Part shown: positions 3,709 to 20,614 of the stretch, piece by piece
How positions within the stretch are numbered: position 1 is the first letter of the stretch
Layout of the letters: each line of letters starts with the position of its first letter
Position numbers and translations under genes: made by a program
The notes under the pieces: generated by a model
Database searches by the model: none
What the model was told of the DNA's origin: nothing
The model's input: only the letters and a program-made list of their open reading frames with translations
Assembly (NCBI GenBank): GCA_945883795.1
Contig: CAMCYC010000003.1
Coordinates: 1-64,000 of the forward strand
Length of the DNA stretch: 64,000 nt
Source of the DNA: Sulfurimonas crateris
GTDB lineage: Bacteria > Campylobacterota > Campylobacteria > Campylobacterales > Sulfurimonadaceae
Direction of reading: 5' to 3'

Positions 3709-4047
3709 ATGGAAACTTTTATTATGTATGCTCTGGGCATTGGATTGAGTGTTTTTTTTCTTTATTTTGTGGGTATTTTAATTGCCCCTTATTCTCCAAA
3801 TCAGATTAAAAATGAACATTTTGAATGCGGTTTACCTGCAAGTAGTTCTACCCCTAAAAAGGCAAATTTTGGATTTTTTATGTTTGCTATCATGTTTATT
3901 GTAGCAGATATGACTGGTTTATTTTTTACACTTTTCGTGTATGCGCATGATATTCATTCACAATTTATTGCCGCTATTTTTGCGGTTATTATTGGGTTTG
4001 CAGTCACATTTTCTATGAAGGAATATAATTATGCTCAAAGTATTTGA
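3709..4047 (+). CDS. nuoA: Complex I-like subunit A
   Basis: Small membrane subunit of 112 residues with three hydrophobic helices. The conserved FECGLP motif sits in the loop after the first helix, and acidic residues lie in the second helix (MFIVADMTGLFFTLF). NuoA packs against NuoH and NuoJ near the quinone-access region. The gene opens the operon behind a near-perfect Shine-Dalgarno AAGGAGG at 3697-3703, five bases before the ATG, much stronger than at the other genes of the operon. Its end overlaps nuoB by 17 bases. NuoA is absent from group 4 hydrogenases, so its presence marks the cluster as complex I rather than an Ech/Mbh hydrogenase. Confidence 0.92.
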   Translation: METFIMYALGIGLSVFFLYFVGILIAPYSPNQIKNEHFECGLPASSSTPKKANFGFFMFAIMFIVADMTGLFFTLFVYAHDIHSQFIAAIFAVIIGFAVTFSMKEYNYAQSI

Positions 4048-4504
4048 TTTTTTTGCCCATGCCAAAAGTGAAAGTCTTTGGATGGCGCACTTTTGTACTG
4101 GTTGTTGCTCGCTTGAGATGGCAGCGGCTATGGGACCTCGTTATGACTGGGAACGGTATGGTTTTTTGCCTACTCCTACACCTCGCCAAGCAGATATTCT
4201 TATTATTACGGGACTTGTCACCAAAAAGATGCTTCCAGCACTTTTACGCACTTATGCACAGATGCCTGAACCAAAATATGTTTTAGCCCTAGGTGCATGT
4301 TCGTTTGATGGCGGACCTTATAATGACTCTTTAGCAGTTATTAAAAACCCTACGGAGATACTTCCAGCAGATGTTTTTGTAGCAGGTTGCCCACCTAAAC
4401 CTGAAGCAATTATTAGTGGCATGGAAGAGATAAAGAAAAAGATGAAAGCTGGAATTCCTAGTGCAGCATCAGAGGGTGGACTTTGGAAGGAGATGAGATT
4501 TTAA
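4031..4504 (+). CDS. nuoB: Complex I-like subunit B (N2 cluster protein), hydrogenase-like variant
   Basis: Soluble [4Fe-4S] protein of 157 residues that carries the terminal N2 cluster. Four likely ligands are visible: the adjacent pair in HFCTGCCSLEM, one in GACSFDGG and one in AGCPPKPE. The paired cysteines are typical of complex I. In contrast, GACSFDGGPYNDS replaces the complex I pattern GSCANGGGYYHYSY and looks like the small subunit of group 4 [NiFe] hydrogenases. The gene overlaps nuoA and abuts nuoCD. The assignment as NuoB is secure; its closeness to hydrogenase-type subunits is my reading of the motifs from memory. Confidence 0.92.
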   Translation: MLKVFDFFAHAKSESLWMAHFCTGCCSLEMAAAMGPRYDWERYGFLPTPTPRQADILIITGLVTKKMLPALLRTYAQMPEPKYVLALGACSFDGGPYNDSLAVIKNPTEILPADVFVAGCPPKPEAIISGMEEIKKKMKAGIPSAASEGGLWKEMRF

Positions 4505-6147
4505 TGCAAAATATCAAAAATATTTTATCCTCTTATGAAACAGAGTATATTGAGGATTATAAAACCGTTTGGATAAAAACAAAGTTGTTAAAAAGTGGTG
4601 ATTTGCTTGAAGTTGCTAAAGCTCTCAAGGAAAATGGTCTGCGAACTATTTCTACCGTTTCTGCCACAGATTTTCTTGAAGAGAATAAAATCGAGATGAA
4701 TTATTTCTTTGAGGATTTACTCACAAAACGAAATTGTTGGCTTAAATGTGATATTCCACGAGAGATAGAATTGTGTGTGATAGATTCGATTACTCCTCTT
4801 TTTGTGGGTGCTTCTTGGCATGAGAGGGAAGTTTTTTCTATGTTTGGAGTCAAATTTACAAACCATCCAGATTTGCGACCTATTATTGTTTCACAAGATT
4901 TTTATGGCAAAACCCCTTTTAGAAAAGATTTTGATTGGGATGCACATGAAGCGGATATTGTAACAAACATGAATACAATCGTGGATTCTTTTGCAAATGA
5001 AGAGTTAGAAAACGATAAAAAACTTGACCCACATGGTTCGGAGATGATTCTTAACTGGGGACCAACACATCCAGCAAGTGGACCAATTCGCCTCAAAGTA
5101 CATTGTGATGGGGAAGAGGTGCTTGGCATTGACCCTGATATTGGGTTTGTGTGGCGAGCTTTGGAGCATTTAGTGACCAAAAAAGATTTTATTGGTGCTA
5201 TTGTTGCAGTTGAGCGATTATGTTTTATGGATAATATCAACTCCATGGTTGGATATTGCCAAGCAGTAGAAGAGATTGCAGGGGTTGAAATTACAGAGTT
5301 TGCAAAGTATATGCGAGTAGTTTTAGGCGAAGTTGCACGACTTTCTTCTCACATGATGGGGATGGCTGGGGTTTATAATGCTTTGGGACTTCACACTGTC
5401 ATGATGTGGAATATGGACATGAGAGAGTTCTTTTTGGACTTTTTGGAGAGTTATAGTGGGGCTAGAATTGCAACTGCTGCGATTGAGCCTGGTGGTGTAA
5501 GATACTCTTTAGAGCCAAAAATGTTAGAGGAACTTCAAAAGGCACTTGATAAATTTGATGCAACAAAAGAGGATATTCGGTCTATATTTGTAAAAAATCC
5601 AACTATGAAACTTCGTGGTGCAAAAATTGGGATTATATCTGCTGATGAAGTTTTGGATTATGCACTTTGTGGTGTTGTGGCACGAGCGAGTGGAGTCAAA
5701 ACAGATATTAGAATTGATGAGCCTTATGGAGCGTATGCAAATATTACAATGGATTATATTACCCAAGAGAGTGGTTCTGCACAAGATAGAATGATTCAAA
5801 TTTTTGCAGAGATGGAACAATCTGTTGATATTATCAAACAAGCCAAAAAACATATTGAAGCAAAAGTTGCTTCGGCTGAGTTTGATTTAACAAAAGACCA
5901 CATGGTAAAAGTACCTAAAAAACTTCCAAAAGGGGAAGCGATTAGTAGGGTAGAGTGGGCAAGAGGGGAAGTTTTAATGCATTTAGTTACAGCAGAAAAA
6001 GCCACTTCACCGTATAGACTTAAATTAAAAGCACCAAGTTTTAATCATACCATGATGCTTAATCATCTTTTAGAGGGGAAAACTCTTTCAGACATTCCAC
6101 TTATCTTTGGCAGTCTTTATATCTGTCAAGGTGATTTAGACAGATAA
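4504..6147 (+). CDS. nuoCD: Fused complex I-like subunits C and D, divergent quinone-site residues
   Basis: The ORF track extends to a TTG at 4483, but the ATG at 4504 overlaps the nuoB stop (TAATG) and has AAGGAG upstream, so it is preferred (547 residues). Residues 1-150 are a NuoC domain with WHEREVFSMFG and a HPDLRP...PFRKDF stretch; residues about 175-547 are NuoD. In NuoD the motif GPTHPASG lacks the second His of the usual GPQHPxxHG, and the position of the quinone-binding Tyr reads Phe (RLCFMD). These two residues normally hold the quinone headgroup. The body (KKDF, GYCQAVEEI) resembles group 4 hydrogenase large subunits such as EchE/HycE, yet both nickel-binding CxxC pairs are missing. 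It likely contacts NuoB and an unusual electron acceptor. Confidence 0.9.
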   Translation: MQNIKNILSSYETEYIEDYKTVWIKTKLLKSGDLLEVAKALKENGLRTISTVSATDFLEENKIEMNYFFEDLLTKRNCWLKCDIPREIELCVIDSITPLFVGASWHEREVFSMFGVKFTNHPDLRPIIVSQDFYGKTPFRKDFDWDAHEADIVTNMNTIVDSFANEELENDKKLDPHGSEMILNWGPTHPASGPIRLKVHCDGEEVLGIDPDIGFVWRALEHLVTKKDFIGAIVAVERLCFMDNINSMVGYCQAVEEIAGVEITEFAKYMRVVLGEVARLSSHMMGMAGVYNALGLHTVMMWNMDMREFFLDFLESYSGARIATAAIEPGGVRYSLEPKMLEELQKALDKFDATKEDIRSIFVKNPTMKLRGAKIGIISADEVLDYALCGVVARASGVKTDIRIDEPYGAYANITMDYITQESGSAQDRMIQIFAEMEQSVDIIKQAKKHIEAKVASAEFDLTKDHMVKVPKKLPKGEAISRVEWARGEVLMHLVTAEKATSPYRLKLKAPSFNHTMMLNHLLEGKTLSDIPLIFGSLYICQGDLDR

Positions 6148-6156
6148 GGAGTAGAT

Positions 6157-7113
6157 ATGGATATGATATTTAATATAGTTGTTTTTCCAGGGCTTTTATA
6201 TGTTTTGTTATGGACAGTTGCATTGTTTTGGTTTTTTAGAAAATTTATGGCAGCTCTTCATAAAAGAGTTGGTCCTAGTTTTAATGGACCTGCTGGGAGT
6301 TTACAAACACTTTTTGATTTGAGTAAACTTCTTACAAAAGAGAGTATCACTCCAAAAGGGGTAAATCCTTATCTTTTTTCAATCATGCCACTTCTTGCTG
6401 CTACTATTGCGATGTTACCTACTGCACTCATTCCATGGACACCTAACCTCACGGTGGTTTCAAGCCAATATGCTTTGCTTGGACTCGTTGTTCTTATTGG
6501 AATAGAACCATTTTTACTCTTTTTAACAGGTTTTGGCTCTGATAATAAATACTCTTTTTTAGGTGGTATTCGGATTTTAACACAGATGATTTCTATGGAA
6601 ACATCTTTTTTTCTCGCAGCTCTTTCACCTGCACTTTTATTTGGAACTATGAATTTAAACTCTATTGTAGAGCAAAGTACTTGGATGAGTTTTTGGATTT
6701 TATTTCCAGGATTTTTACTCTATTTTGTTGCACTTCTTGGACTCTTAGAACAACCTCCTTTTAATATTCCAGATGCAGAACAAGAGATAGTGTATGGTTT
6801 TTATACAGAATACAGCGGTACAAACTATTTTCTTTTAAAACTTGCAGAGTTTGCTGAGTTTATGGCAGTTTTTGCGGGAGCTGCAACACTCTTTTTGGGT
6901 GGTTTTAGAGGATTGTTTTTTGATAATTATTTTTGTCTTTTTATTAAAATGATTTTGATTGCAATTTTTATGATGACTATTCGTGCAAGTACACCTCGTA
7001 TTACCATGAAACAGATGCTTAATTTTTCATGGAGCTATTTAGTGCCACTTTCACTTTTAAATCTTGCATGGATTATGTTAGCTAAAATATTTATACTCGG
7101 AGGCGTTGCATGA
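6157..7113 (+). CDS. nuoH: Complex I-like subunit H
   Basis: Membrane subunit of 318 residues with about eight helices, which forms the quinone chamber and links the redox arm to the proton pumps. Conserved signatures are KRVGPSFNGPAGSLQ near residue 37, the acidic loop PFNIPDAEQEIVYGFYTEYSG near 202, and FLGGFRG after it. The ATG follows AAGGAGTAGAT. Unlike NuoD in this operon, the NuoH loops keep the normal pattern with only mild changes (PFNIPDAE for PFDLPEAE). The 3' end overlaps nuoI by four bases. Confidence 0.93.
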   Translation: MDMIFNIVVFPGLLYVLLWTVALFWFFRKFMAALHKRVGPSFNGPAGSLQTLFDLSKLLTKESITPKGVNPYLFSIMPLLAATIAMLPTALIPWTPNLTVVSSQYALLGLVVLIGIEPFLLFLTGFGSDNKYSFLGGIRILTQMISMETSFFLAALSPALLFGTMNLNSIVEQSTWMSFWILFPGFLLYFVALLGLLEQPPFNIPDAEQEIVYGFYTEYSGTNYFLLKLAEFAEFMAVFAGAATLFLGGFRGLFFDNYFCLFIKMILIAIFMMTIRASTPRITMKQMLNFSWSYLVPLSLLNLAWIMLAKIFILGGVA

Positions 7114-7598
7114 TTTTTCAACTTATTGCAAAAGTGTTTCGTGTTTCAAAGGCACTCTTTATCAAAAGCCCAGCAACACAAGATGTAAGAACACATGTTA
7201 TGCACCAAGCAGAGCGTTATAGAGGTGAGCATAGAATCGATTATGAAACTTGTATAGGGTGTGATGCATGTGATAAAATTTGTCCAACTCATGCTATTAC
7301 CATGAAACATCTGCCGTTTAAAAAACAAAATATTGTTCCAGAGGTGAATCTTTCTGTTTGTATATTTTGTGGACTTTGTGAAGATGTTTGTCCTACAAAA
7401 CCAGAAAAGTCAATTATTTTGAGTGGTGGAAGGTATGATATGCTTAGTGGTGGTTGGCATGAAGACCAAAATCAATTTTGGGTGCATGTTGATATTCCTC
7501 AAAGTTATATAGATAGCAGACTCGAAGAGGAAGAGGCTGCAAGAGTAAAAAAAGAGTTAGCTGCAAAGAAAAAAGCAGCCCAAGGAGAAAAAGAATGA
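7110..7598 (+). CDS. nuoI: Complex I-like subunit I, 2x[4Fe-4S] ferredoxin-type
   Basis: Peripheral iron-sulphur protein of 162 residues carrying clusters N6a and N6b. Two complete CxxCxxCxxxCP motifs are seen: CIGCDACDKICP near residue 48 and CIFCGLCEDVCP near 87. The N-terminal amphipathic helix (FQLIAKVFRVSKALF) would anchor it to the membrane arm. The C-terminus is a Lys/Ala/Glu-rich tail of about 25 residues. With no NuoE, NuoF or NuoG in the operon, NuoI would be the outermost iron-sulphur subunit and the probable docking point for an electron donor such as ferredoxin or flavodoxin; this is an inference. Confidence 0.93.
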   Translation: MIFQLIAKVFRVSKALFIKSPATQDVRTHVMHQAERYRGEHRIDYETCIGCDACDKICPTHAITMKHLPFKKQNIVPEVNLSVCIFCGLCEDVCPTKPEKSIILSGGRYDMLSGGWHEDQNQFWVHVDIPQSYIDSRLEEEEAARVKKELAAKKKAAQGEKE

Positions 7599-8068
7599 AT
7601 ATAGTTATTTTAACCATTGTTTTAGCACTTGCAATTGCTTCTTTGAATCTCAAAAAGAGTATCGCAGCACTAATATCTTTTGCTCTTATGATGTTAGTTT
7701 TGGGGATTTATTATATCTCTTTAGATGAAAAACTTTTGGGATTATTTCAAATTTTTGTTTATACTGGCGGGATTGGTGTGCTTATGCTTTTTGGGATAAC
7801 TCTTATTGGCGTTGAATTTCCAATTACAAAGAAAAATCCATGGACTGCATTTATCTCATTTTTATTTTTTGTTCTCGTTGTTGTTTTTGGTTTGAAAAAT
7901 CATATACTTTTGGTGGCACATCATCCAGAAATAGTGGAGAGTAAAGAACTTTTTGCAAACTCTTATAGTGATTTTGTGATTATCTTTGCATTGATAGGTT
8001 CAAGCCTACTCTATGCAACAATTAAAATGATAAATGTACTCAACCCTAAAAGGAAAAAAAATGTTTGA
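7595..8068 (+). CDS. nuoJ: Complex I-like subunit J
   Basis: Integral membrane protein of 157 residues with five hydrophobic helices. The third helix carries the conserved pattern QIFVYTGGIGVLMLFGITL, the pi-bulge helix that changes conformation during turnover in complex I. The gene overlaps nuoI by four bases and nuoK by eight bases. Length is close to other NuoJ proteins, somewhat shorter at the C-terminus than the E. coli protein. Confidence 0.92.
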   Translation: MNIVILTIVLALAIASLNLKKSIAALISFALMMLVLGIYYISLDEKLLGLFQIFVYTGGIGVLMLFGITLIGVEFPITKKNPWTAFISFLFFVLVVVFGLKNHILLVAHHPEIVESKELFANSYSDFVIIFALIGSSLLYATIKMINVLNPKRKKNV

Positions 8069-8360
8069 AACTGACATGCTTTTTGCCATTGCACTCTTTA
8101 GTATAGGGCTTTTTGGAGTCACTTCCAATAAAGATTTTTTACGCATATTCTTTTCATTAGAGATGCTGATTAACGCTGTTATTTTAATGTTGGCTTCAAG
8201 TGCTCATTATTTGGGATTGTCACAAAATCTTCCACTTGCTTATATGCTTATTATTTTAGCAACGCTTGAAGCTGGTGTTGGAATTTTGATTTTTGCAGCT
8301 GCAAATAAGTTTACACACTCAGTTGTCCCAGATGAGATAGACCATGAAGGAAGCAAATGA
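8061..8360 (+). CDS. nuoK: Complex I-like subunit K
   Basis: Small three-helix antiporter-like subunit related to MrpC. The ORF track begins at 8034, but the ATG at 8061 follows AAAGGAAAAAAA and gives the standard 99-residue NuoK length, so it is preferred. The conserved Glu of helix 2 is present in FFSLEMLINAVIL and the Glu of helix 3 in LATLEAGVGILIF; both are part of the central proton path. It overlaps nuoJ by eight bases and nuoL by four. Confidence 0.92.
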   Translation: MFETDMLFAIALFSIGLFGVTSNKDFLRIFFSLEMLINAVILMLASSAHYLGLSQNLPLAYMLIILATLEAGVGILIFAAANKFTHSVVPDEIDHEGSK

Positions 8361-10207
8361 ATACACAAATAACAGCTTTATTATTGTTGCCATTTATTGG
8401 GGCAATTGTCACATTTGTAGTAGGAAAATATAAAAAATCACTTGCTTTTTGGTTTGCTGAAATTATCGGTATTACCCTCTTTGTATTGAGCTTTTCTATT
8501 TTTATGTCTTGGCATGAGCCTTTGAATTTTGATTTTCAGTGGTTTACTTTTGGAGCAACGACTTTGCCTTTTGGGATTTATATTGACCATTTATCTCTTG
8601 TGATGCTTCTTATTGCCACAGGTTTAGGTGCACTTGATATACATTTTTCGCATGATTATATGGCAGAAGAGAAAGACCAAGCAAGATATTATTCAAAAAT
8701 ACTCTTTTTTATTGGTGGAATGATTTTACTCGTAAGTGCAAAAGAACTCACTGGTTTATTCGTTGGATGGGAATTTATGGGACTAGCGAGTTATTTGCTT
8801 ATCTCTTTTTGGCATCAAAATTCTGCTCCAGCAGATGCTGGTGTTGCTGCATTTTTATATACAAAGTTTGGGGATATTTTTCTTTTTGCAGCGATTGGTT
8901 TACTCATTTATTATACTGGCACTTTGGACATGGTAAAACTGAATCAACCTGAAATAAATGGCTCAATTAGTACAAACATAATTTATGTGATAGCGGTATT
9001 TATTTTTATAGCTGCCATTGGTAAGTCTGGACAATTTCCTCTCTTTCCATGGCTTATGCGTGCGATGGAAGGTCCTACAACTGTTTCAGCACTTATTCAT
9101 GGTGCTACTATGGTTAATAGTGGTATTTATATAGTTGCAAGACTTTTTGACTTTTATGTTGCTGCAAATGCTCTTATTGTTGTTGCGTCAATTGCTGCTT
9201 TGAGTGCGTTTATTGGAGCAACTTCTGCACTCGTGCAAGATGAGATGAAAAAGGTTCTTGCTTATTCAACCATGTCACATCTTTCACTTGCTTTTATGGG
9301 CTTGGGTGCAAGTTCTTTGGCGGTTGGTATGACCCATCTTGTAAACCATGCTATTTTTAAAGCATTACTTTTTTTATCTGTTGGGGCGGTGATTATGTCC
9401 ACACATCATACAAAAGATGTTTGGAAATTAGGTGGCTTAAGTCATAAGCTTACACTTGTTGCACTCTTTATGGGGATGGGGATTCTTTCATTGAGTGGTG
9501 TTCCCCCTTTTAGTGGTTATTTTTCCAAAGATGCAGTTTTGGCTTCAGCACTTTTAAATCCACAAACGCATGGTTTCTTGAGCACTTTAACTATTATTGC
9601 GGGAGTTCTTTCTATTGCTTATGGTGGAAGATTATGGACACTAATTTTTGGAGGAAGGGTACGAGATAGAGAGATATATGAAAAAGCAACAACTCCATCG
9701 CTCTTTTGGATATCTTTACCTTTAGGAATTATGGCAGTTTCCACATTGGTTTTGGGTTTTTATCACGAAAAAGTAATCAATTTTATTGCTAATCAAGAGT
9801 ATATTGAACCGCATGCAGATTGGTTACTATTGTTTATGATGAGTGCGATTTCTCTCTTAGCGTTGCTTGTGTATTACTTTTATAGGCGTCGATATAGTTT
9901 AAGAGAAAAAGTATCTGCACAACCTTTTATGAAAACAATTCGTCAGGTTTTATTAAATGGCTATTATATTGAAGTGATGATTACTTGGTTTGCAAAAAAT
10001 ATTATGGTTTACAGTGTTGCAAAAAGTATTAATTGGAGTGAAAAACATATTATTGATGGTTTAGTCAATGGCATGGTTTCTTTGAGTCATAAAATATTTA
10101 TTTTATTTGAAAAAACACAGAGTCCAAAAGTAAGCAATCAATCAGGCACCATGCTTTTGGGTGTAGTGCTTATTGTGATGATAATTTTTATAGGAAGTGT
10201 GCTATGA
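8357..10207 (+). CDS. nuoL: Complex I-like subunit L, antiporter-like proton pump with lateral helix
   Basis: Large antiporter-like subunit of 616 residues, close to the 613 of E. coli NuoL. The conserved helix-5 Glu lies in FVGWEFMGLASYLLI and the helix-7 Lys in IGKSGQFPLFPWL. The signature AMEGPTTVSALIHGATMVNSGIY follows, with a late HL-helix region and a final membrane anchor at the C-terminus (MLLGVVLIVMIIFIG). It sits at the distal end of the membrane arm. Its full length, including the lateral helix, says the membrane arm is complete even though the NADH module is absent. Confidence 0.94.
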   Translation: MNTQITALLLLPFIGAIVTFVVGKYKKSLAFWFAEIIGITLFVLSFSIFMSWHEPLNFDFQWFTFGATTLPFGIYIDHLSLVMLLIATGLGALDIHFSHDYMAEEKDQARYYSKILFFIGGMILLVSAKELTGLFVGWEFMGLASYLLISFWHQNSAPADAGVAAFLYTKFGDIFLFAAIGLLIYYTGTLDMVKLNQPEINGSISTNIIYVIAVFIFIAAIGKSGQFPLFPWLMRAMEGPTTVSALIHGATMVNSGIYIVARLFDFYVAANALIVVASIAALSAFIGATSALVQDEMKKVLAYSTMSHLSLAFMGLGASSLAVGMTHLVNHAIFKALLFLSVGAVIMSTHHTKDVWKLGGLSHKLTLVALFMGMGILSLSGVPPFSGYFSKDAVLASALLNPQTHGFLSTLTIIAGVLSIAYGGRLWTLIFGGRVRDREIYEKATTPSLFWISLPLGIMAVSTLVLGFYHEKVINFIANQEYIEPHADWLLLFMMSAISLLALLVYYFYRRRYSLREKVSAQPFMKTIRQVLLNGYYIEVMITWFAKNIMVYSVAKSINWSEKHIIDGLVNGMVSLSHKIFILFEKTQSPKVSNQSGTMLLGVVLIVMIIFIGSVL

Positions 10208-11637
10208 GTTCTCTTTTACTTATTTTTTCTCCAATAGTTTTATCGTTATTTGTTTATTTTATCACTAGAAATAGTGGTTATGCAAAGTACATAGCACTCG
10301 CTCTTTTTGGCTGGATGCTTTTTGAAAGTATAACCCTCTATATGCAATTACCACAAACTGGTTACATGTTGCTTGGAGAATTTTTAGATGTAAAAGCCTT
10401 TGATTTTAAGCTTGTTTTACAAGTGGACCGTTTGAGTGTTATTATGCTTTTACTTACCTCTGTTTTACTTATTTTAGTGACACTCTCTAGTTGGAGCATG
10501 AAAAATCAAGCAGCTTATTTTGCTTTGCTTATCTTTTTTTCAGGTGCAATTTTTGGTGTTTTTATGAGTACAAACTTCTTATGGTTTTTTATTTTCTGGG
10601 AATTAACACTTATCCCTATGTACTTTTTAGTAGGTGTTTGGGGTGCTGAGGGGCGTGTGTATGCTGCTATAAAATTCTTTTTATATACACATGTGGCTTC
10701 CATGTTCATTTTACTTGCATTTTTTCTTATTTATAAACAAAGTGGAACTTTTGATATGACGATGATTAAAGAGGCAGTTTTAGTGACACCTACTTTAATT
10801 TGGTGGCTTTTATTTATTGGCTTTGCTGTTAAAATGCCACTTTTCCCATTTCACACTTGGCTTCCAGATGCCCATGTTCAAGCACCTGCGCCTGTTTCTG
10901 TTTTACTCGCTGGGGTACTTTTAAAAATGGGTGCATATGCGATGATACGGATGGTAATTTTAATGCTTCCACTTGAAGCACAAAAGTACGCATGGGTGAT
11001 TTTGATACTAGGACTTTTGAGTCTTTTATATGCGGGTTTTATGGCTTTATATGAAACACATGTCAAAAAAATGGTGGCATATAGCTCAATTTCACACATG
11101 GGGCTTGTTGCAATTGCAATATCTGCTATGAGTTTTGAGTCTTTGAGTGCTGGAGTGTATGAGATGATAGGGCATGCTTTTATTATTTCTCCACTCTTTT
11201 TAATAGCTGGATTTTTCCATCACAAAACAGGGAGTTGGCAAATGGGTGATATGGGTGGTATTATGCAAAAAAGCCCTTATGTTTCCGCAATTTTTGTCTT
11301 AGCTGGTTTAGGGGCTTTGGGGCTTCCTGCAACTATGGGCTTTATCGGAGAACTCACAATTTTAATCAGCTCAATTGAGCGTTTTGGAACATGGCTTATT
11401 ATTATTTTGCTCGGTTCTATGCTCTCGGCAGCTTATCTTATTTGGACATTTCGCCGTGTTATTTATGGCGAGATGAGTGAACTTGTGATGAAAACTGAGT
11501 TTAGCATGTCAAAAGTGGAATTTCTATCGCTTATGATTTTTGCGATTTTGATAGTTCTTTTTGGAATTTATCCCCAACCACTTTTTGATATGATAAATCA
11601 GGTTTTTAGCGGTTATGTAATAGGAGGTGCATTATGA
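10204..11637 (+). CDS. nuoM: Complex I-like subunit M, antiporter-like proton pump
   Basis: Antiporter-like subunit of 477 residues with 14 predicted helices. The essential Glu is in FFIFWELTLIPMYFLVGVWG near residue 130 and the Lys in FAVKMPLFPFHTWLPDAHVQAPAPVSVLLAG near 215; a second Lys lies in HVKKMVAYSSISHMG. Overlaps nuoL and nuoN by four bases each. All residues expected for a working proton channel appear to be kept. Confidence 0.94.
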   Translation: MSSLLLIFSPIVLSLFVYFITRNSGYAKYIALALFGWMLFESITLYMQLPQTGYMLLGEFLDVKAFDFKLVLQVDRLSVIMLLLTSVLLILVTLSSWSMKNQAAYFALLIFFSGAIFGVFMSTNFLWFFIFWELTLIPMYFLVGVWGAEGRVYAAIKFFLYTHVASMFILLAFFLIYKQSGTFDMTMIKEAVLVTPTLIWWLLFIGFAVKMPLFPFHTWLPDAHVQAPAPVSVLLAGVLLKMGAYAMIRMVILMLPLEAQKYAWVILILGLLSLLYAGFMALYETHVKKMVAYSSISHMGLVAIAISAMSFESLSAGVYEMIGHAFIISPLFLIAGFFHHKTGSWQMGDMGGIMQKSPYVSAIFVLAGLGALGLPATMGFIGELTILISSIERFGTWLIIILLGSMLSAAYLIWTFRRVIYGEMSELVMKTEFSMSKVEFLSLMIFAILIVLFGIYPQPLFDMINQVFSGYVIGGAL

Positions 11638-12947
11638 GTGCTTTTGTTGTTTTATTTGCCTCGGCACTATTTTCTTTTGCTATTCGTGGTGTATTGATAC
11701 AAAAAGCGTTTGCTTTTAGTGCATTGGTTGTGGCGGGTAGTTTAGTGATTTTAGGTTATACCACTCCACTGAGTGGTTTTGGCTCAAATACTATTATCTC
11801 TTTTTTTGAACTGATAGTATTTATAGTTTTTGGTGCTGTGGTTTTGAGTGAAGATGAAACTATAAATATTACGCAATCACTTTTCATAGCCTCCGCCTCT
11901 CTTTTACTGCTTGAGAGTAAGACAATTTTAACTTTTGTTATCTCTTTTGAAGCACTTAGTATTATTTCATTTATTTTGGTGAGTAATATTAAAAATGCAA
12001 CTCAAGCAGAAGGTGCTTTAAAAATGTTTATCTCAGGGGCAATTGCAACTGGATTGATTGTTTTGGGGTTAAGTCTTTATACGATTGAAGGGCACTCTCT
12101 AAATGAAGCTATCTCTATGAAAGCTGGTCTTTTTGGAACTCTTGGTTTATGGATTATTTTAGTTGGATTATTTTATAAATTGACAATTGTTCCCATGCAT
12201 GGCTGGGCAGCGGATAGTTACGCACAAGTGAGACCTTCTCATGCTGCAGTTCTCTCTGGAGTTGCCAAAACAGTTGTTGTAATAGCCTTATTTTATACTT
12301 TTTCCCCTTTTATTTTAGAAAATTTAAGTTTTAACTCCCCAATTTTTCTTGTTCTTTCTGTTGTTACGATGACAATTGGAAATGTGCTTGCACTTTTTCA
12401 AAAGAAAATTGGTAGAATCCTTAGCTATTCTTCTATCGCTCATGCAGGTTATATGTTGTTGCCATTTGCAGTGCTAGAAAGTTCGTTTGCATCCACTGGA
12501 TTATTATATATGGCTATTGCCTATATTTTTATGCAAACAGCACTTTTTTTACTTTTGGATAAACTCTCAAATGGAAATAGTGATATGACGCTTGAGCAAT
12601 TCAAAGGGTTGGCAACAAAACAGAAACTTAGCGCACTATTTTTTACAGTACAACTTTTTTCACTCGCAGGAATTCCACTTCTTGGAGGTTTTATCTCTAA
12701 AGCAATTTTGGTCTATGCGGTTGTAGATGTGAATTTAACAGTTGTTGCTTTGATAGTTTTACTTAATTCTGCTTTATCAGTTGGTTATTATGCATGGATT
12801 ATAAAACATATTTATTTTGATGGTGTAAGTGGAGAGAATAAAATCACACAAGTCGCAATAATGCCACTTCTTGCACAAACTATTTTACTTTTAGGAACAC
12901 TTTATTTTGGTATTTTTGCCTATAGTGTTTTTTCAGTTACAATTTAA
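11634..12947 (+). CDS. nuoN: Complex I-like subunit N, antiporter-like proton pump
   Basis: Antiporter-like subunit of 437 residues, shorter than E. coli NuoN (485) and somewhat divergent, which is usual for Campylobacterota. The functional Glu is in FVISFEALSIISFILVS near residue 103, and the Lys-bearing segment reads GLFYKLTIVPMHGWAADSYAQVRPSHAAVLSG near 190. Last nuo gene of the operon. The stop is 16 bases before the following small membrane-protein gene, which is probably cotranscribed. Confidence 0.92.
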   Translation: MSAFVVLFASALFSFAIRGVLIQKAFAFSALVVAGSLVILGYTTPLSGFGSNTIISFFELIVFIVFGAVVLSEDETINITQSLFIASASLLLLESKTILTFVISFEALSIISFILVSNIKNATQAEGALKMFISGAIATGLIVLGLSLYTIEGHSLNEAISMKAGLFGTLGLWIILVGLFYKLTIVPMHGWAADSYAQVRPSHAAVLSGVAKTVVVIALFYTFSPFILENLSFNSPIFLVLSVVTMTIGNVLALFQKKIGRILSYSSIAHAGYMLLPFAVLESSFASTGLLYMAIAYIFMQTALFLLLDKLSNGNSDMTLEQFKGLATKQKLSALFFTVQLFSLAGIPLLGGFISKAILVYAVVDVNLTVVALIVLLNSALSVGYYAWIIKHIYFDGVSGENKITQVAIMPLLAQTILLLGTLYFGIFAYSVFSVTI

Positions 12948-13376: not shown

Positions 13377-15722
13377 ATGATGTCAGATGCAGTAGAAGAG
13401 ATAGTAATTATTGATGATAGTGAAGCTAATAAAGTTGGTAATTCAAATAAAAAAATAAAACACCAAAATGATAATGATGAGGCAAAAAAGAAAAAAATTA
13501 TAATTTTTGGTGGTGCAGCGATTGCATTAACTCTTATTATTGTAATAGTTATTTTGTTATCTATAAAACTATCAAAACAAGAGGTGGCTCTTCCTATGGC
13601 CATGGAACCCATAGAAATAAAGCTTGAACAAAAAACTACGGTATCTATTGAACCTAGTAAATTAGAAAAATTAATCTCTAAAGCTAATTATTTGTACACG
13701 AATGGCTCAAAAGAGGAAGCACTTCCTTTGTATGAAAAAATAGCACTCTATTCTCAAGCAATTTCAAGATACAATTTAGGTGTTGCACAAATGAAAAATG
13801 GGCAATATGAGATGGCACTTGAAACATTCAAGCAAGCAATTACGAATGATAAAAAAAGGTGTGTCAGTGCAATAAATGCAGCCGTTTGTTGTTTACAGCT
13901 CAAAGATGAAAGCCGTTTTAAATATTATATAGATTTAGCATATGCTTATTTGCCAAGCGAAGCGAATTCCCCTTTATATTCCTATTATTACACACTTATT
14001 AATTATTACAATAAAAATTACTTAGAAAGTTTGAGTTCACTTGAAAATCCAAGTTCAGACGAATATCCAGAGATTAAAAAATATTTGAGTGCAAAAATGA
14101 ATGCACTTTTTGGTAACGATTATGAGGCGATAGAATCTATGGAAAAATCGTTTATGCAAGCAGATTCGTTTAATATTGGACTTTTATACGCAAGAGTTGG
14201 GGAATTAGTTCTTGCTAAAAAGAACTTTGAAGAAGCTATTTTACATAATAATGAGCCTATGAAATCACAACTTGCATTGGGACTTATTGATTTGAAATTA
14301 GGTTTTGTACTCTCGGGAAGCAAAGAGATTAAGAATGTAACAGATATGTTTGAAGAGGAGATTTATAATCCATATCCAATCAAAGTGGAACTTAAAAATT
14401 CTCTTTTTGAACCAGTTGAAGCTCAAAAATTGTATCGAAATTTTGAAAAAAATAAGTATTTCAATTACCAAAAACTGTTTTATTTTTCCCCTTATAAAAT
14501 TTTTAATGCCGAGCAAACAATTAGTTATATCCGAAAAGGAAATGCAAATATTTTTGTTGATAATATTGAAGGTGCTCAGGAATATCTTAAAAAAGGGGAT
14601 TACTCTTCAAGTGTAAATCTTGGAATAACAGCAGCCATTCAAAAGGCTTTGCAGTTTAAAATAAGAGAAGCAAACGAAGAGTTGCAAAAAATGGTTAAAA
14701 TAGAGCCACGCCATTCTATATTACAGTACGATTTAGCTCTTACCTATGCACAAATGGGAGATATGATTGAAGCACAGAAACATTTTTTACTCTCTTATCA
14801 TCTTGATGCAAAAAATTATTTATCTGGAATATATGCACTCATGACAAGCCAGATAATTAATAAAGAGAGTGATAAGTTTAAATCTATTCTCAAAAATGAC
14901 TTAGAAGATGAAGAAGCCAGTGAGAATATTGATTTTTATAAAACTCTTTATGCCATGAGTGAAAATAATATACTTGTCATGTCTGATTGGCTTAATAATA
15001 GTTACAAAAGAAAACCTCTCTATTTAGCAGTCGATATTATTAGTGCTTTAATTTTAAATAAAACAGCGGCTGCAAATAAAGCTTCTGAAGAGTTGGTGAA
15101 ATTATCTCCACATGAGATAGTGCCACACTTAATGTATGCAGATACTCATTTTGAGAAATTGGCTTATAAAGAGTATGCAAAAGAGTTATATAATTATTTA
15201 AAGTTGCAAAAGTTTGATTTTGATGATTTGTATTTTGGTCCTGAAATAGTACGCTATTTATATATACAAGCAAATCTCATGACGGGAAGACTTTATTATC
15301 TGCAAGAACAATTAAAAGAAGTTTTAAGTAAAACCAAAGAGACTAAACAGGAACTCATCAGAGGGTTAGCTTTGACTTATTTGTATAATAAAAATTTTGA
15401 AGAATCATATACGCTTTATAATCAACTCATTGATGACCTCAAAGTCACAGATGCTCGCACCCTATTTTTGGGTGCAGTTGCATCTACTGCAGCCAATCAT
15501 CATAGCAATGCGATAGCATTACTTGAATTATCAAAGATAAAAGACCCAAATTTTTTAGAGAGTCGTTACGCTTTAGGTCTTTTATATCTTGAGGCAAAAA
15601 ATAACCAAGGTGGAGTTATCCAATTGGCAAAAGTTGGAGATGGAACTTTTATTTCTGAATATTTTAATTTTGAAATTGATTTAGACAAATTGTTATTTGA
15701 GAAGCAACGCAAGGTTGAATAG
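13377..15722 (+). CDS. TPR-repeat membrane protein, PflB-like flagellar stator scaffold
   Basis: Protein of 781 residues: a charged cytoplasmic N-terminus, one membrane helix at about 40-64 (IIIFGGAAIALTLIIVIVILL), then a long periplasmic region made of tetratricopeptide helices (for example residues 100-170 and 440-480). Size and layout match Campylobacter PflB (Cj0390, about 820 residues), which with PflA forms the disk-and-cage scaffold that holds the MotAB stators. Two adjacent ATGs open the gene (13377 and 13380). It stands alone between a small membrane-protein gene and a chemoreceptor gene. The PflB call rests on layout and length rather than on a diagnostic motif; a generic TPR protein is the alternative. 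Confidence 0.6.
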   Translation: MMSDAVEEIVIIDDSEANKVGNSNKKIKHQNDNDEAKKKKIIIFGGAAIALTLIIVIVILLSIKLSKQEVALPMAMEPIEIKLEQKTTVSIEPSKLEKLISKANYLYTNGSKEEALPLYEKIALYSQAISRYNLGVAQMKNGQYEMALETFKQAITNDKKRCVSAINAAVCCLQLKDESRFKYYIDLAYAYLPSEANSPLYSYYYTLINYYNKNYLESLSSLENPSSDEYPEIKKYLSAKMNALFGNDYEAIESMEKSFMQADSFNIGLLYARVGELVLAKKNFEEAILHNNEPMKSQLALGLIDLKLGFVLSGSKEIKNVTDMFEEEIYNPYPIKVELKNSLFEPVEAQKLYRNFEKNKYFNYQKLFYFSPYKIFNAEQTISYIRKGNANIFVDNIEGAQEYLKKGDYSSSVNLGITAAIQKALQFKIREANEELQKMVKIEPRHSILQYDLALTYAQMGDMIEAQKHFLLSYHLDAKNYLSGIYALMTSQIINKESDKFKSILKNDLEDEEASENIDFYKTLYAMSENNILVMSDWLNNSYKRKPLYLAVDIISALILNKTAAANKASEELVKLSPHEIVPHLMYADTHFEKLAYKEYAKELYNYLKLQKFDFDDLYFGPEIVRYLYIQANLMTGRLYYLQEQLKEVLSKTKETKQELIRGLALTYLYNKNFEESYTLYNQLIDDLKVTDARTLFLGAVASTAANHHSNAIALLELSKIKDPNFLESRYALGLLYLEAKNNQGGVIQLAKVGDGTFISEYFNFEIDLDKLLFEKQRKVE

Positions 15723-18280: not shown

Positions 18281-18853
18281 ATGTTAAATATTATTTTATT
18301 AAGAATTGCTAAAACGGCAATTTTACAGGCATTCGACAAAAATAGAGATATTGATACACAAGGACTTATAAGTAAATACCCTTTTCTAGAAAAAGCGGGT
18401 GCTTCTTTTGTAACACTTAAGTATGAGCATCAGCTTAGAGGATGTATTGGCTCAATAATAGCACATAGAAAGCTTTTGGATGACATTGTGCGTAATGCAA
18501 AATCTGCTGCTTTTAATGACCCTAGATTTAGCTCTTTAAAAAGTGAAGAGTTTTCACATCTCACACTTGAAGTTTCCATTTTAAGTGAACCTCATTTTTT
18601 AGAATATGAAGATTTTGATGATTTAGTACAAAAAATTCGACCAAATATTGATGGACTTATTTTAAAATATGGGGTTTATCAAGGGACATTTTTGCCTCAG
18701 GTTTGGGAGCAACTTACACAGGCTAAAGATTTCTTAGAACACTTGAGCATAAAAGCGGGTGCAAATCCTAGTATTTATGCGAAGCATCCAGATATTTATA
18801 CCTATCAAGTCGATGCGATAGAGGAGAAATTTGATGCAATATTACCGTTATAA
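18281..18853 (+). CDS. amrA: AMMECR1-domain protein AmrA (AmmeMemoRadiSam component A)
   Basis: AMMECR1-family protein of 190 residues with the family signature LRGCIGSI near residue 50 and the conserved NAKSAAFNDPRFSSL segment near 73. The family is found in all domains of life; the human member is linked to a contiguous-gene syndrome, and the biochemical role is unsettled. Here it heads a three-gene operon with a radical SAM enzyme and a Memo-family protein, the arrangement named AmmeMemoRadiSam. The stop overlaps the next start by 20 bases. Confidence 0.9.
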   Translation: MLNIILLRIAKTAILQAFDKNRDIDTQGLISKYPFLEKAGASFVTLKYEHQLRGCIGSIIAHRKLLDDIVRNAKSAAFNDPRFSSLKSEEFSHLTLEVSILSEPHFLEYEDFDDLVQKIRPNIDGLILKYGVYQGTFLPQVWEQLTQAKDFLEHLSIKAGANPSIYAKHPDIYTYQVDAIEEKFDAILPL

Positions 18854-19823
18854 AGATGAAACATCTCTAACATGCTTATTGTGCAAACATTACTGCACTT
18901 TAAAAAAAGATTCGCATGGGATTTGTGGAATAAACTTCAATATTGATGAGCATCTGGTAAATAAAACATATGGACATCCAAGCACTGTTCATGTAGACCC
19001 TATAGAGAAAAAACCGCTTTATCATTTTTTGCCCTCTTCTTCATCCCTTTCCATAGGAACAGTTGGCTGTAATTTTAGATGTCCATTTTGTCAGAACTAT
19101 TCTATTTCGCAGACCTCTACTGTAGACGAAAGTAGTTTTTACACTCCTCAAGACTTGGTAAATTTAGCACTTAAATATAAAACAAAAAGTATTAGTTACA
19201 CATACAATGAGCCAACCATCTGGTATCCTTATGCAAAAGATATTGGTATGCTTGCAAAAGAATATGGGCTTAAGAATGTTTTTGTTTCGAGTGGATATGA
19301 ATCAAAAGAAGTTTTAGAAGATATGAAATATTGGGTTGATGCTGCAAATATCGACCTTAAAAGTTTTTCTCATGAGTACTATAAAAAAGTTTTAAAAACT
19401 GATTTAGATGGTGTTTTAGAATCTCTTATAGAGTTTGCCAAGAGTAATATTTGGCTAGAGATAACAACCTTAATCATACCAAATATCAATGATAGCGATG
19501 AAGAGATACACAAAATGGCAGAGTTTATCTCAAGCAAATTAGGAACAGATATACCATGGCATTTTAGTGCTTTTCATCCTGATTATAAAATGCTTGATAC
19601 GCCGAGTACATCTTTGGAAAGTTTGCAAAGGGCTAAAGCTATTGCTCAAAGTTACGCTATAAAGTATGTTTATTTAGGAAATATAAGAACAAATACAAAT
19701 ACATATTGCGATAAATGCCATGCAGAACTTATACAACGCAATGGCTTTTTTGCAGAGTATTCAAATATGCAAGGTAATCAATGTTTGGCATGTGAAAATA
19801 TTATACCAGGAGTTTTTAGATGA
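18834..19823 (+). CDS. amrS: AmmeMemoRadiSam system radical SAM enzyme AmrS
   Basis: Radical SAM enzyme of 329 residues. The CxxxCxxC motif that binds the SAM [4Fe-4S] cluster is C79-C83-C86 (GCNFRCPFCQN). Extra cysteines occur near the N-terminus (CLLCKHYC, then HGICGIN) and the C-terminus (CDKCHAEL and CLACENI), which could bind a zinc or a second cluster. The track start is TTG at 18831, immediately before an ATG at 18834, which I prefer. It resembles PflA-type activases and is always paired with the Memo and AMMECR1 proteins. Its substrate is not known; Memo or AMMECR1 themselves are plausible targets. Confidence 0.9.
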   Translation: MQYYRYKDETSLTCLLCKHYCTLKKDSHGICGINFNIDEHLVNKTYGHPSTVHVDPIEKKPLYHFLPSSSSLSIGTVGCNFRCPFCQNYSISQTSTVDESSFYTPQDLVNLALKYKTKSISYTYNEPTIWYPYAKDIGMLAKEYGLKNVFVSSGYESKEVLEDMKYWVDAANIDLKSFSHEYYKKVLKTDLDGVLESLIEFAKSNIWLEITTLIIPNINDSDEEIHKMAEFISSKLGTDIPWHFSAFHPDYKMLDTPSTSLESLQRAKAIAQSYAIKYVYLGNIRTNTNTYCDKCHAELIQRNGFFAEYSNMQGNQCLACENIIPGVFR

Positions 19824-20614
19824 GAAGAGAGATGAGCGTTGTTGGTTTATTTTATCCAGCCAGAGATGTTGAATTAGAGAGATATTTTGAGCATTTTAAT
19901 AAGATATACGATACTCATGAAACATTACCAGATGTACAAAGTAGGGCAGTGATAGTTCCTCATGCGGGTTATATTTACTCTGGATATACAGCAAATATAG
20001 CCTATAGGATTTTGCAAAATTCTCGTATTAAAAATTTTGTAGTCATTGGACCTTCCCATAAAGTAGGTTTTGAAGGGATAAGTCTTTGTACTGCCCAAAC
20101 TTATGCTACACCTTTTGGAAATATTCAAAGTTCTGCAGCACTCGTAGCGGAGTTAAAAGACGATTTTAATCTTACTACTATTTTAAGTCCACATGCTGAA
20201 CATAGTACAGAGGTACAATTTCCCTTTATTAAATATTATTTACCAGATGCAAAAATTGTTGAACTTGTGTATGGGAATATCCCTCCTGAATTTCTTTCTC
20301 AAATCATAGACTTTATTTTAGAAAAAAAAGATTGTGGGGTTATCATCAGTACCGATTTAAGTCATTTTTACACGCTAGAACAGGCAAATAAACTTGATAA
20401 TATTTGCCTCAATGGTATCTATAACTTGGAAATACGCCTACTCAATCAAGGGTGTGAGGCATGTGGCATGACAGGTGTAAAAGCGATGATTCTAAGTGCC
20501 AAAAAATTGCGACTTACTTCGGGTATTTTAGATTACAGAACAAGTGCTGATACTAGTCATAACACAAAGAATGTAGTGGGTTATGTGAGTGCTTTTTTTA
20601 AAAATGGAAGATAA
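19820..20614 (+). CDS. amrB: Memo-family protein AmrB (AmmeMemoRadiSam component B)
   Basis: MEMO1-like protein of 264 residues. Human Memo1 has a metal site made by two His and one Cys; here the equivalent segments are VPHAGYIYSGYTA (near residue 50), GPSHKVGFEG (near 80) and EACGMTGVKA (near 213). The SPHAEHSTEVQFPF and STDLSHFYT motifs of the extradiol-dioxygenase-like fold are also present. It overlaps amrS by four bases, so AmrA, AmrS and AmrB are made together. Function is inferred only as part of this conserved radical SAM trio. Confidence 0.9.
   Translation: MRREMSVVGLFYPARDVELERYFEHFNKIYDTHETLPDVQSRAVIVPHAGYIYSGYTANIAYRILQNSRIKNFVVIGPSHKVGFEGISLCTAQTYATPFGNIQSSAALVAELKDDFNLTTILSPHAEHSTEVQFPFIKYYLPDAKIVELVYGNIPPEFLSQIIDFILEKKDCGVIISTDLSHFYTLEQANKLDNICLNGIYNLEIRLLNQGCEACGMTGVKAMILSAKKLRLTSGILDYRTSADTSHNTKNVVGYVSAFFKNGR

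Follow-up and report, generated by a model that had tools for sequence, protein, structure and literature searches.

When a pump of the complex I type lacks the residues that hold its quinone, on what does it act? The question is raised by an operon at positions 3709-12947 (+ strand) of a 64,000-nucleotide stretch from a Sulfurimonas crateris assembly (GCA_945883795.1, contig CAMCYC010000003.1, positions 1 to 64,000), the whole of which we call the window. The operon is complete and reads nuoA-B-CD-H-I-J-K-L-M-N, with neighbouring genes that overlap or nearly do so, and each subunit was assigned by Pfam and NCBIfam profile search. Genes for NuoE, NuoF and NuoG are not adjacent to it, and the other loci of the family to which it belongs likewise carry A-B-CD-H-N without EFG. 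We read the product as an intact 11-subunit proton pump of the complex I superfamily that would be linked to ferredoxin and whose cavity most likely acts on sulfane sulfur (polysulfide or persulfide), a reading in which our confidence falls a little short of even.

The host genome (G000), a campylobacterial draft of 2.41 Mb, also encodes two ordinary complex I loci, on contig 76 (NuoB, fused CD, E and F) and contig 103 (NuoB, separate C and D), and one true group 4 NiFe hydrogenase on contig 4 in which both CxxC pairs are present. These loci serve as internal controls, and with the window operon they make four members of the complex I superfamily within one 2.4-Mb genome. The closest named relative of the operon comes from an uncultured Sulfurimonas metagenome-assembled genome (MAG), in which NuoCD is 88% identical. 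A pseudogene or sequencing artefact was considered and rejected, as every subunit is open and conserved across many assemblies.

Quinone-site residues and remnants of the NiFe site

The features of the fused NuoC-NuoD subunit that bear on its active site are as follows. Its open reading frame (ORF) spans 4483-6147 when read from a TTG, and residue numbers are counted from that codon (554 aa); the ATG at 4504, with AAGGAG upstream, is the likelier start.

4504..6147, + strand: fused NuoC-NuoD (NuoCD), PF00329 and PF00346; ATG at 4504 behind AAGGAG
5068..5082, + strand: HPASG in the beta1-beta2 loop of NuoCD; first His kept, His38 deleted, no counterpart of MbhL Glu21
5221..5226, + strand: Cys247-Phe248 of NuoCD; C247 is the first Cys of the N-terminal NiFe CxxC and equals MbsL C85, and Phe stands at Tyr87
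5380..5382, + strand: Ala300 of NuoCD, at the Asp139 position
6124..6126, + strand: Cys548 of NuoCD, in ICQGDLDR-end; first Cys of the C-terminal NiFe CxxC, equal to MbsL C385

We aligned 39 NuoCD members of the family, all from Campylobacteria, with 15 ordinary NuoD controls, which include both ordinary complex I copies of the host genome, and with five group 4 hydrogenase subunits. In complex I the quinone head group is held by His38, Tyr87 and Asp139 (Thermus Nqo4 numbering). The His38 column is a gap and the Tyr87 position a Phe in 39/39 family members, against His and Tyr in all 15 controls, and the Asp139 position, Asp in 15/15 controls, is occupied by Asn, Thr, Ala, Ser or Met in every family member. 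Because the same gap, Phe and non-Asp recur throughout, the loss of the quinone site is a fixed trait of the family and not a chance difference in a single protein. The first His of GPxHP is present in family and ordinary proteins alike. The original prediction, made from the letters of the window, held that NuoD lacks the second His of GPQHPxxHG and has Phe in place of the quinone-binding Tyr; both statements were borne out, and an alignment that could have placed a His and a Tyr at the two sites placed neither. NuoCD also misses the NuoD equivalog cut-offs (264.5 bits vs. 459 for TIGR01962; 315.6 vs. 360 for NF004739) and that of the NCBIfam FpoD exception model (243 bits vs. 600).

The site is not that of a hydrogenase either. 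The beta1-beta2 loop reads HPAS-GP and lacks the catalytic Glu (MbhL Glu21), and the second, bridging Cys of both CxxC pairs is lost, so that the four cysteines of a NiFe center are not all in place. It had been claimed that both nickel-binding CxxC pairs are absent; each pair is indeed broken, yet retains its first Cys. C247, in the motif R[LI]CFMDN, is invariant in 39/39 family proteins, and C548, in [IV]CQGDLDR, in all 37/37 members with a readable C-terminus; a third invariant Cys, C98, lies in the NuoC domain. C247 and C548 align with MbhL C68 and C374, the first Cys of each CxxC. In NiFe hydrogenases, the cysteines at these positions are the terminal nickel ligands.

The same two cysteines are retained in the membrane-bound sulfane sulfur reductase (MBS) of the archaeon Pyrococcus furiosus, whose MbsL subunit lacks H38, Y87 and the Glu21 of the membrane-bound hydrogenase (MBH) and keeps 2 of the 4 NiFe cysteines, C85 and C385 (PMC7684303). 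By alignment coordinates against the 6u8y_L chain, on which this correspondence is based, C247 falls on MbsL C85 (query 5-77 vs. chain 58-130, no net gap) and C548 on C385 (query 4-66 vs. chain 329-391, ungapped). A further stretch, L1 (VTKKDF...ERLC...AVEEIAG), scores best with MbhL (45.7 bits; complex I reaches no more than 35.2 and HycE 23); the reported resemblance of KKDF and GYCQ-x-x-E-E-I to EchE/HycE is therefore better described as one to MBH. In an AlphaFold model of NuoCD, the mean predicted local distance difference test score (pLDDT) was 71, but it fell below 50 at 194-202, 230-254 and 548-554, which are exactly the segments concerned, so the C247-C548 distance is not readable. 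A Foldseek search with this model returned fused NuoCD of complex I first, formate hydrogenlyase (FHL) ninth and MBS outside the top 50, a ranking that carries little weight at such pLDDT values.

The subunit that houses cluster N2 was compared in an alignment of 57 family rows, some of whose loci overlap between collections.

4031..4504, + strand: NuoB, [4Fe-4S] N2 subunit, PF01058; NF005012 at 184 bits; Cys 22, 25, 26, 90 and 120
4091..4108, + strand: FCTGCC motif of NuoB; tandem C25-C26 of complex I plus an extra Cys22, which aligns with MbsJ C25

All 57 rows contain C[TS]GCCSLEM, and Cys 22, 25, 26, 90 and 120 are invariant. The complex I Cys pair claimed for NuoB was thus confirmed, the tandem C25-C26 standing together with C90 and C120, whereas the GACSFDGG said to be hydrogenase-like is a weak sign, as GAC..GG occurs in ordinary NuoB too. 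What is distinctive is FC[TS]GCC with its extra Cys22: ordinary NuoB has F-G-x-A-C-C or similar in this stretch, and MbsJ has FCTGCGGIEM. Judged by its residues, family NuoB unites the tandem pair of complex I with the counterpart of MbsJ C25. That MbsJ residue is unable to reach the cluster in MBS, whose proximal [4Fe-4S] cluster has three Cys ligands and is the catalyst (PMC7684303). The family has the MbsJ-like Cys22, yet also C26 where MbsJ has Gly, and its cluster ligation is not readable from the alignment. As to the collections, two loci, L039:5392-7053 (a Sulfurovum sp. FS08-3 MAG) and L007 (G177 C39), are apparently identical, and some loci are duplicates. In another MAG (L055:9549-10022) NuoB is split into two ORFs, most likely by an assembly frameshift.

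Membrane arm, phylogeny and hosts

The remaining subunits of the operon include the hydrophobic arm and the putative point of electron entry.

3709..4047, + strand: NuoA, PF00507 at 43 bits; Asp79 kept (E. coli numbering), Glu81 replaced by Thr
6157..7113, + strand: NuoH; Glu36 replaced by Phe, the remaining checked charged residues mostly kept
7110..7598, + strand: NuoI; two [4Fe-4S] motifs, 8 Cys; likely entry of ferredoxin electrons
7595..8068, + strand: NuoJ, PF00499; Tyr59 kept
8034..8360, + strand: NuoK, PF00420; Glu36 and Glu72 kept
8357..10207, + strand: NuoL, antiporter-like, NF005141 at 435 bits; E144, D178, K229, K342 and K399 kept
10204..11637, + strand: NuoM, antiporter-like, TIGR01972 at 410 bits; E144, K234, K265 and E407 kept
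11634..12947, + strand: NuoN, antiporter-like, TIGR01770 at 194 bits; E133, K158, K217, K247 and K395 kept

We compared NuoL, NuoM, NuoN, NuoK and NuoJ with E. coli across all family members examined, at residues that we take, from general knowledge of the E. coli enzyme, to be those of the pump. Every one of them is kept in every member, including E36 and E72 of NuoK and Y59 of NuoJ. The genes are those of a complex I arm (NuoA/H/J/K/L/M/N) and not of the Mrp-derived arm with Na+/H+ antiporter subunits that characterizes MBS. The exceptions to this conservation lie in NuoH and NuoA. The Glu36 position of NuoH is Phe, Ser or Ala in the family, compared to Glu in E. coli, Prevotella and the ordinary NuoH of the host, and Thr or Ser in HycD/HyfC; NuoH Asp213 has become Asn or His, and Glu216 Asp; and NuoA Glu81 is Thr, Ser or Ala, as opposed to E. 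coli and the ordinary NuoA of the host. These changes sit at the coupling interface, and the residue pattern shows the pump left intact and the redox site altered.

A NuoD-type tree (LG+I+G4; supports given as SH-like approximate likelihood ratio/ultrafast bootstrap) places the family in a single clade outside all ordinary Nuo, including the haloarchaeal proteins (99.6/100), and outside the group 4 hydrogenase clade that includes MbhL (99.9/100). Approximately unbiased (AU) tests rejected grouping the family with NuoCD (p = 0.0155) or NuoD (p = 0.013) of Campylobacteria, and also with MbhL (p = 0.037) or haloarchaeal Nuo (p = 0.046). A constraint uniting the family with the hydrogenases carries no information, since its fast-search topology is compatible with the best tree. 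The tree could have nested these proteins inside ordinary Nuo and did not, and, together with the invariant residues and the AU tests, it supports the earlier view that the protein belongs neither to the standard quinone reductases nor to the hydrogenases. The suggestion of an intermediate branch fared less clearly. The branch is separate and emerges where the Nuo and group 4 NiFe clades meet, which is compatible with an intermediate, but the tree is unrooted, contains neither MbsL nor FpoD sequences, and gives the family a long stem (0.93), so that it is no proof of one.

In a sample of 397 Campylobacteria genomes, the family is present in 15: all 9 of a group of small genomes (f5) that size, gene content and identity level mark as Nautiliaceae-like, 4 of the 29 Sulfurovum-like (f4) and 2 of the 52 Sulfurimonas-like (f1). 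Identity across these host families ranges from 55 to 88% for NuoCD, and below 55% the values drop abruptly to about 33%, the level at which ordinary NuoCD starts. The Sulfurimonas-like and Sulfurovum-like hosts also carry an ordinary NuoD scoring about 350 bits or more (346 bits in the window's own genome). In all nine Nautiliaceae-like genomes, the family NuoD is the only NuoD-like non-hydrogenase protein. Nautilia profundicola is reported to have a complex I without EFG, for which its genome paper proposes NAD(P)H formation from quinol (PMC2628731). This partial nuo complex and the Nautiliaceae-like family complex are probably the same, because all nine genomes carry the family as their only non-hydrogenase complex I; if so, its residues argue against a normal quinone site. 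A literature search, from whose scope most subscription journals were excluded, found no paper describing the family.

A reductase-like flavoprotein beside the operon and PFOR within it

The 10-gene operon is constant across loci, and the genes that flank it mostly vary. One recurrent neighbour is a 454-aa flavoprotein of the coenzyme A (CoA)-disulfide reductase family, with best model TIGR03385 (205 bits, under the cut-off) and relatives in the PDB among NoxA-3, CoA-disulfide reductases and CoA-persulfide reductase. In six loci it lies next to the operon and on its strand, four times upstream (L049, L051, L063 and L065) and twice downstream (L038 and L117). The copy in L051 (1036-2400) overlaps nuoA by 4 bp; that in L038 lies at 18490-19863. 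The gene is rare in the class (16/397 genomes), but outside the Nautiliaceae-like group it occurs in 6/6 carriers of the complex vs. 10/382 other genomes, a co-occurrence with p = 1.8e-9 over the 388 genomes concerned and 9e-6 within the Sulfurimonas-like and Sulfurovum-like groups, both values uncorrected for genome relatedness. The host genome has its copy, 70% identical, on contig 4 (C4:31106).

Two relatives carry an insertion between nuoJ and nuoK (L055, 14907-19461, and L063, 9536-14093) that contains a full-length pyruvate:ferredoxin (flavodoxin) oxidoreductase (PFOR; 1810 bits), accompanied in the same gap by a dihydroorotate dehydrogenase-like gene. Its position inside the operon supports ferredoxin or flavodoxin as the partner of the complex. 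There is no usable general co-occurrence between PFOR and the complex among the 397 genomes; PFOR is common (179/397) and several carriers of the complex are without it, so only the physical insertion in these two operons counts.

Other genes were seen around the operons. In that of L055, a 415-aa putative membrane protein is inserted as well. In the window, nuoN is followed by a gene (13377-15722) for a large tetratricopeptide repeat (TPR) protein of 781 aa, and an ORF of about 720-756 aa occupies the same place in 8 of the 9 Nautiliaceae-like loci (L108-L116). The TPR and chemoreceptor genes downstream in the window look unrelated to the operon, as do the genes upstream of the Nautiliaceae-like operons, named by eye as AAA+ ATPase-like and RsmE-like. 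Farther along the window, at 18281-20614, AMMECR1-like, radical SAM and MEMO-like ORFs stand in a row and resemble, by eye only, the AmmeMemoRadiSam triad of unknown function.

What the remodelled cavity may act on

Three kinds of known complex frame the question. With MBS (PDB 6U8Y; PMC7684303), the family shares the absence of the quinone His/Tyr and of MbhL Glu21, the C85/C385 equivalents as its only NiFe cysteines, FCTGC in the NuoB/MbsJ subunit, and the lack of an NADH module; it differs in being bacterial, in the NuoC-NuoD fusion, in its complex I arm (NuoAHJKLMN), in the second adjacent Cys of NuoB, and in being known from sequence alone. With the 11-subunit, EFG-less complex I it shares gene set and order, the two-cluster NuoI, three antiporter-like subunits and the tandem Cys of NuoB, but it has lost the NuoD quinone residues, NuoH Glu36 and NuoA Glu81, keeps half of the NiFe cysteines, and forms its own clade. 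Group 4 NiFe hydrogenases (MBH, Ech, FHL) resemble it in L1, nearest to MbhL, in the first Cys of each CxxC, in the loss of NuoH Glu36 as in HycD/HyfC, and in having no NADH module; missing both bridging cysteines, and hence a NiFe site, the family instead has NuoA/J/K/L/M/N of the complex I type.

On our preferred reading, NuoI would receive electrons from ferredoxin or flavodoxin, and its two clusters would relay them to N2 of NuoB. The NuoB/NuoCD/NuoH cavity, which in complex I is the quinone pocket, has been rebuilt, with the quinone His, Tyr and Asp gone and the two terminal nickel-ligand cysteines of the ancestral NiFe site remaining, as in MBS, and at N2 it would handle sulfane sulfur. 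Typical potentials are about -0.45 V for ferredoxin, about -0.26 V for polysulfide/sulfide and -0.075 V for menaquinone, so that the span between ferredoxin and polysulfide is moderate and could be exploited by a pump in either direction. In sulfur-reducing, H2-fed hosts of the Nautiliaceae-like kind, ferredoxin would reduce polysulfide and protons would be pumped; in sulfide-oxidising, CO2-fixing hosts, the proton motive force might lift electrons from reduced sulfur to ferredoxin for the reductive tricarboxylic acid (TCA) cycle. The original prediction had offered a different quinone or another acceptor. Nothing specific was found for the former; for the latter, the two Cys positions, the MbsJ-like Cys22 and the linkage to the CoA-disulfide/persulfide reductase-like gene point to an MBS-like site.

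Several observations weigh against this assignment. The membrane arm is of the complex I and not the Mrp type, and the retained C25-C26 pair means that the cluster could be fully ligated, unlike the three-Cys cluster of MBS. MbsL C85 and C385 are dispensable for MBS catalysis (PMC7684303), so retention of their equivalents is no proof of function. MbsL is missing from the NuoD-type tree, and in the NuoB tree MbsJ stands beside the family with weak support (45.8/72). Finally, a clear homologue of the flavoprotein is present in only 3 of the 9 Nautiliaceae-like genomes.

A remodelled quinone pocket and a sulfur pocket are not separable by sequence alone, and the strongest competitor, which we nevertheless consider unlikely, is a menaquinone oxidoreductase that holds the head group with other residues, working as a ferredoxin:menaquinone pump or in reverse from quinol to NAD(P), as proposed for Nautilia. 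The membrane arm, the tandem Cys of NuoB and the NuoA/J/K set are all of the complex I type, whole-chain scores are higher for NuoD than for hydrogenase models, and quinol-driven NAD(P)H formation by the EFG-less complex of N. profundicola has been proposed in its genome paper (PMC2628731). However, His38, Tyr87, Asp139, NuoH Glu36 and NuoA Glu81 are all lost, with the His38 deletion and the Tyr87-to-Phe change fixed, and Sulfurimonas- and Sulfurovum-type hosts already own an ordinary complex I.

Less probable again is that C247, C548 and Cys22 of NuoB form a redox-active thiol/disulfide or metal site for an organic disulfide or persulfide, such as CoA-disulfide or CoA-persulfide, and not for inorganic polysulfide. 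The absolute conservation of C247, C548 and C98 of NuoCD and of C22 of NuoB, and the adjacent and co-occurring CoA-disulfide-reductase-like gene, would fit such a site, but MBS turns over without the equivalent cysteines of MbsL (PMC7684303), and the predicted structure, with pLDDT below 50 there, is too uncertain to show the two cysteines meeting. A pump with some other low-potential acceptor or donor would suit a cavity that exactly matches neither quinone reductase nor hydrogenase, but no gene neighbour points to another substrate, and we regard it as slightly more doubtful still. That the complex is a decaying paralogue without activity, as its lack of the catalytic residues found in either neighbouring family might suggest, is highly improbable given an intact operon, 55-88% NuoCD identity across families, invariant pump residues, and the fact that 9/9 Nautiliaceae-like genomes have no other complex I apart from hydrogenases.

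The family bears on the origin of complex I. On a current account, a NiFe hydrogenase gave rise to an MBS-like sulfur reductase and this in turn to quinone reductase, as first two of the NiFe cysteines were lost and then all four (PMC7684303). The known two-cysteine stage has an Mrp-type arm; the family, which is bacterial and has many members, combines the same two-Cys, quinone-less site with a complete complex I arm and both adjacent cysteines of NuoB, so that it becomes possible to test whether the site or the membrane arm changed first. The family also bears on Nautilia, whose partial nuo complex is likewise without EFG and is treated, in the part of the genome paper seen, as a quinone-linked complex I with no remark there on an altered active site (PMC2628731). 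With the family as the only non-hydrogenase complex I in Nautiliaceae-like genomes, the published model, in which quinol drives NAD(P)H formation, may have to be replaced. Beyond this, and with somewhat more reserve than for the substrate itself, we suggest that a bacterial complex I-type pump with sulfane sulfur in place of quinone may be a second, independent (or bridging) chassis for the MBS site, and that vent Campylobacteria could run it in reverse, from sulfide to ferredoxin, to feed CO2 fixation. Such a pump would be a candidate answer to the question of where sulfur-dependent, CO2-fixing vent bacteria obtain their reduced ferredoxin.

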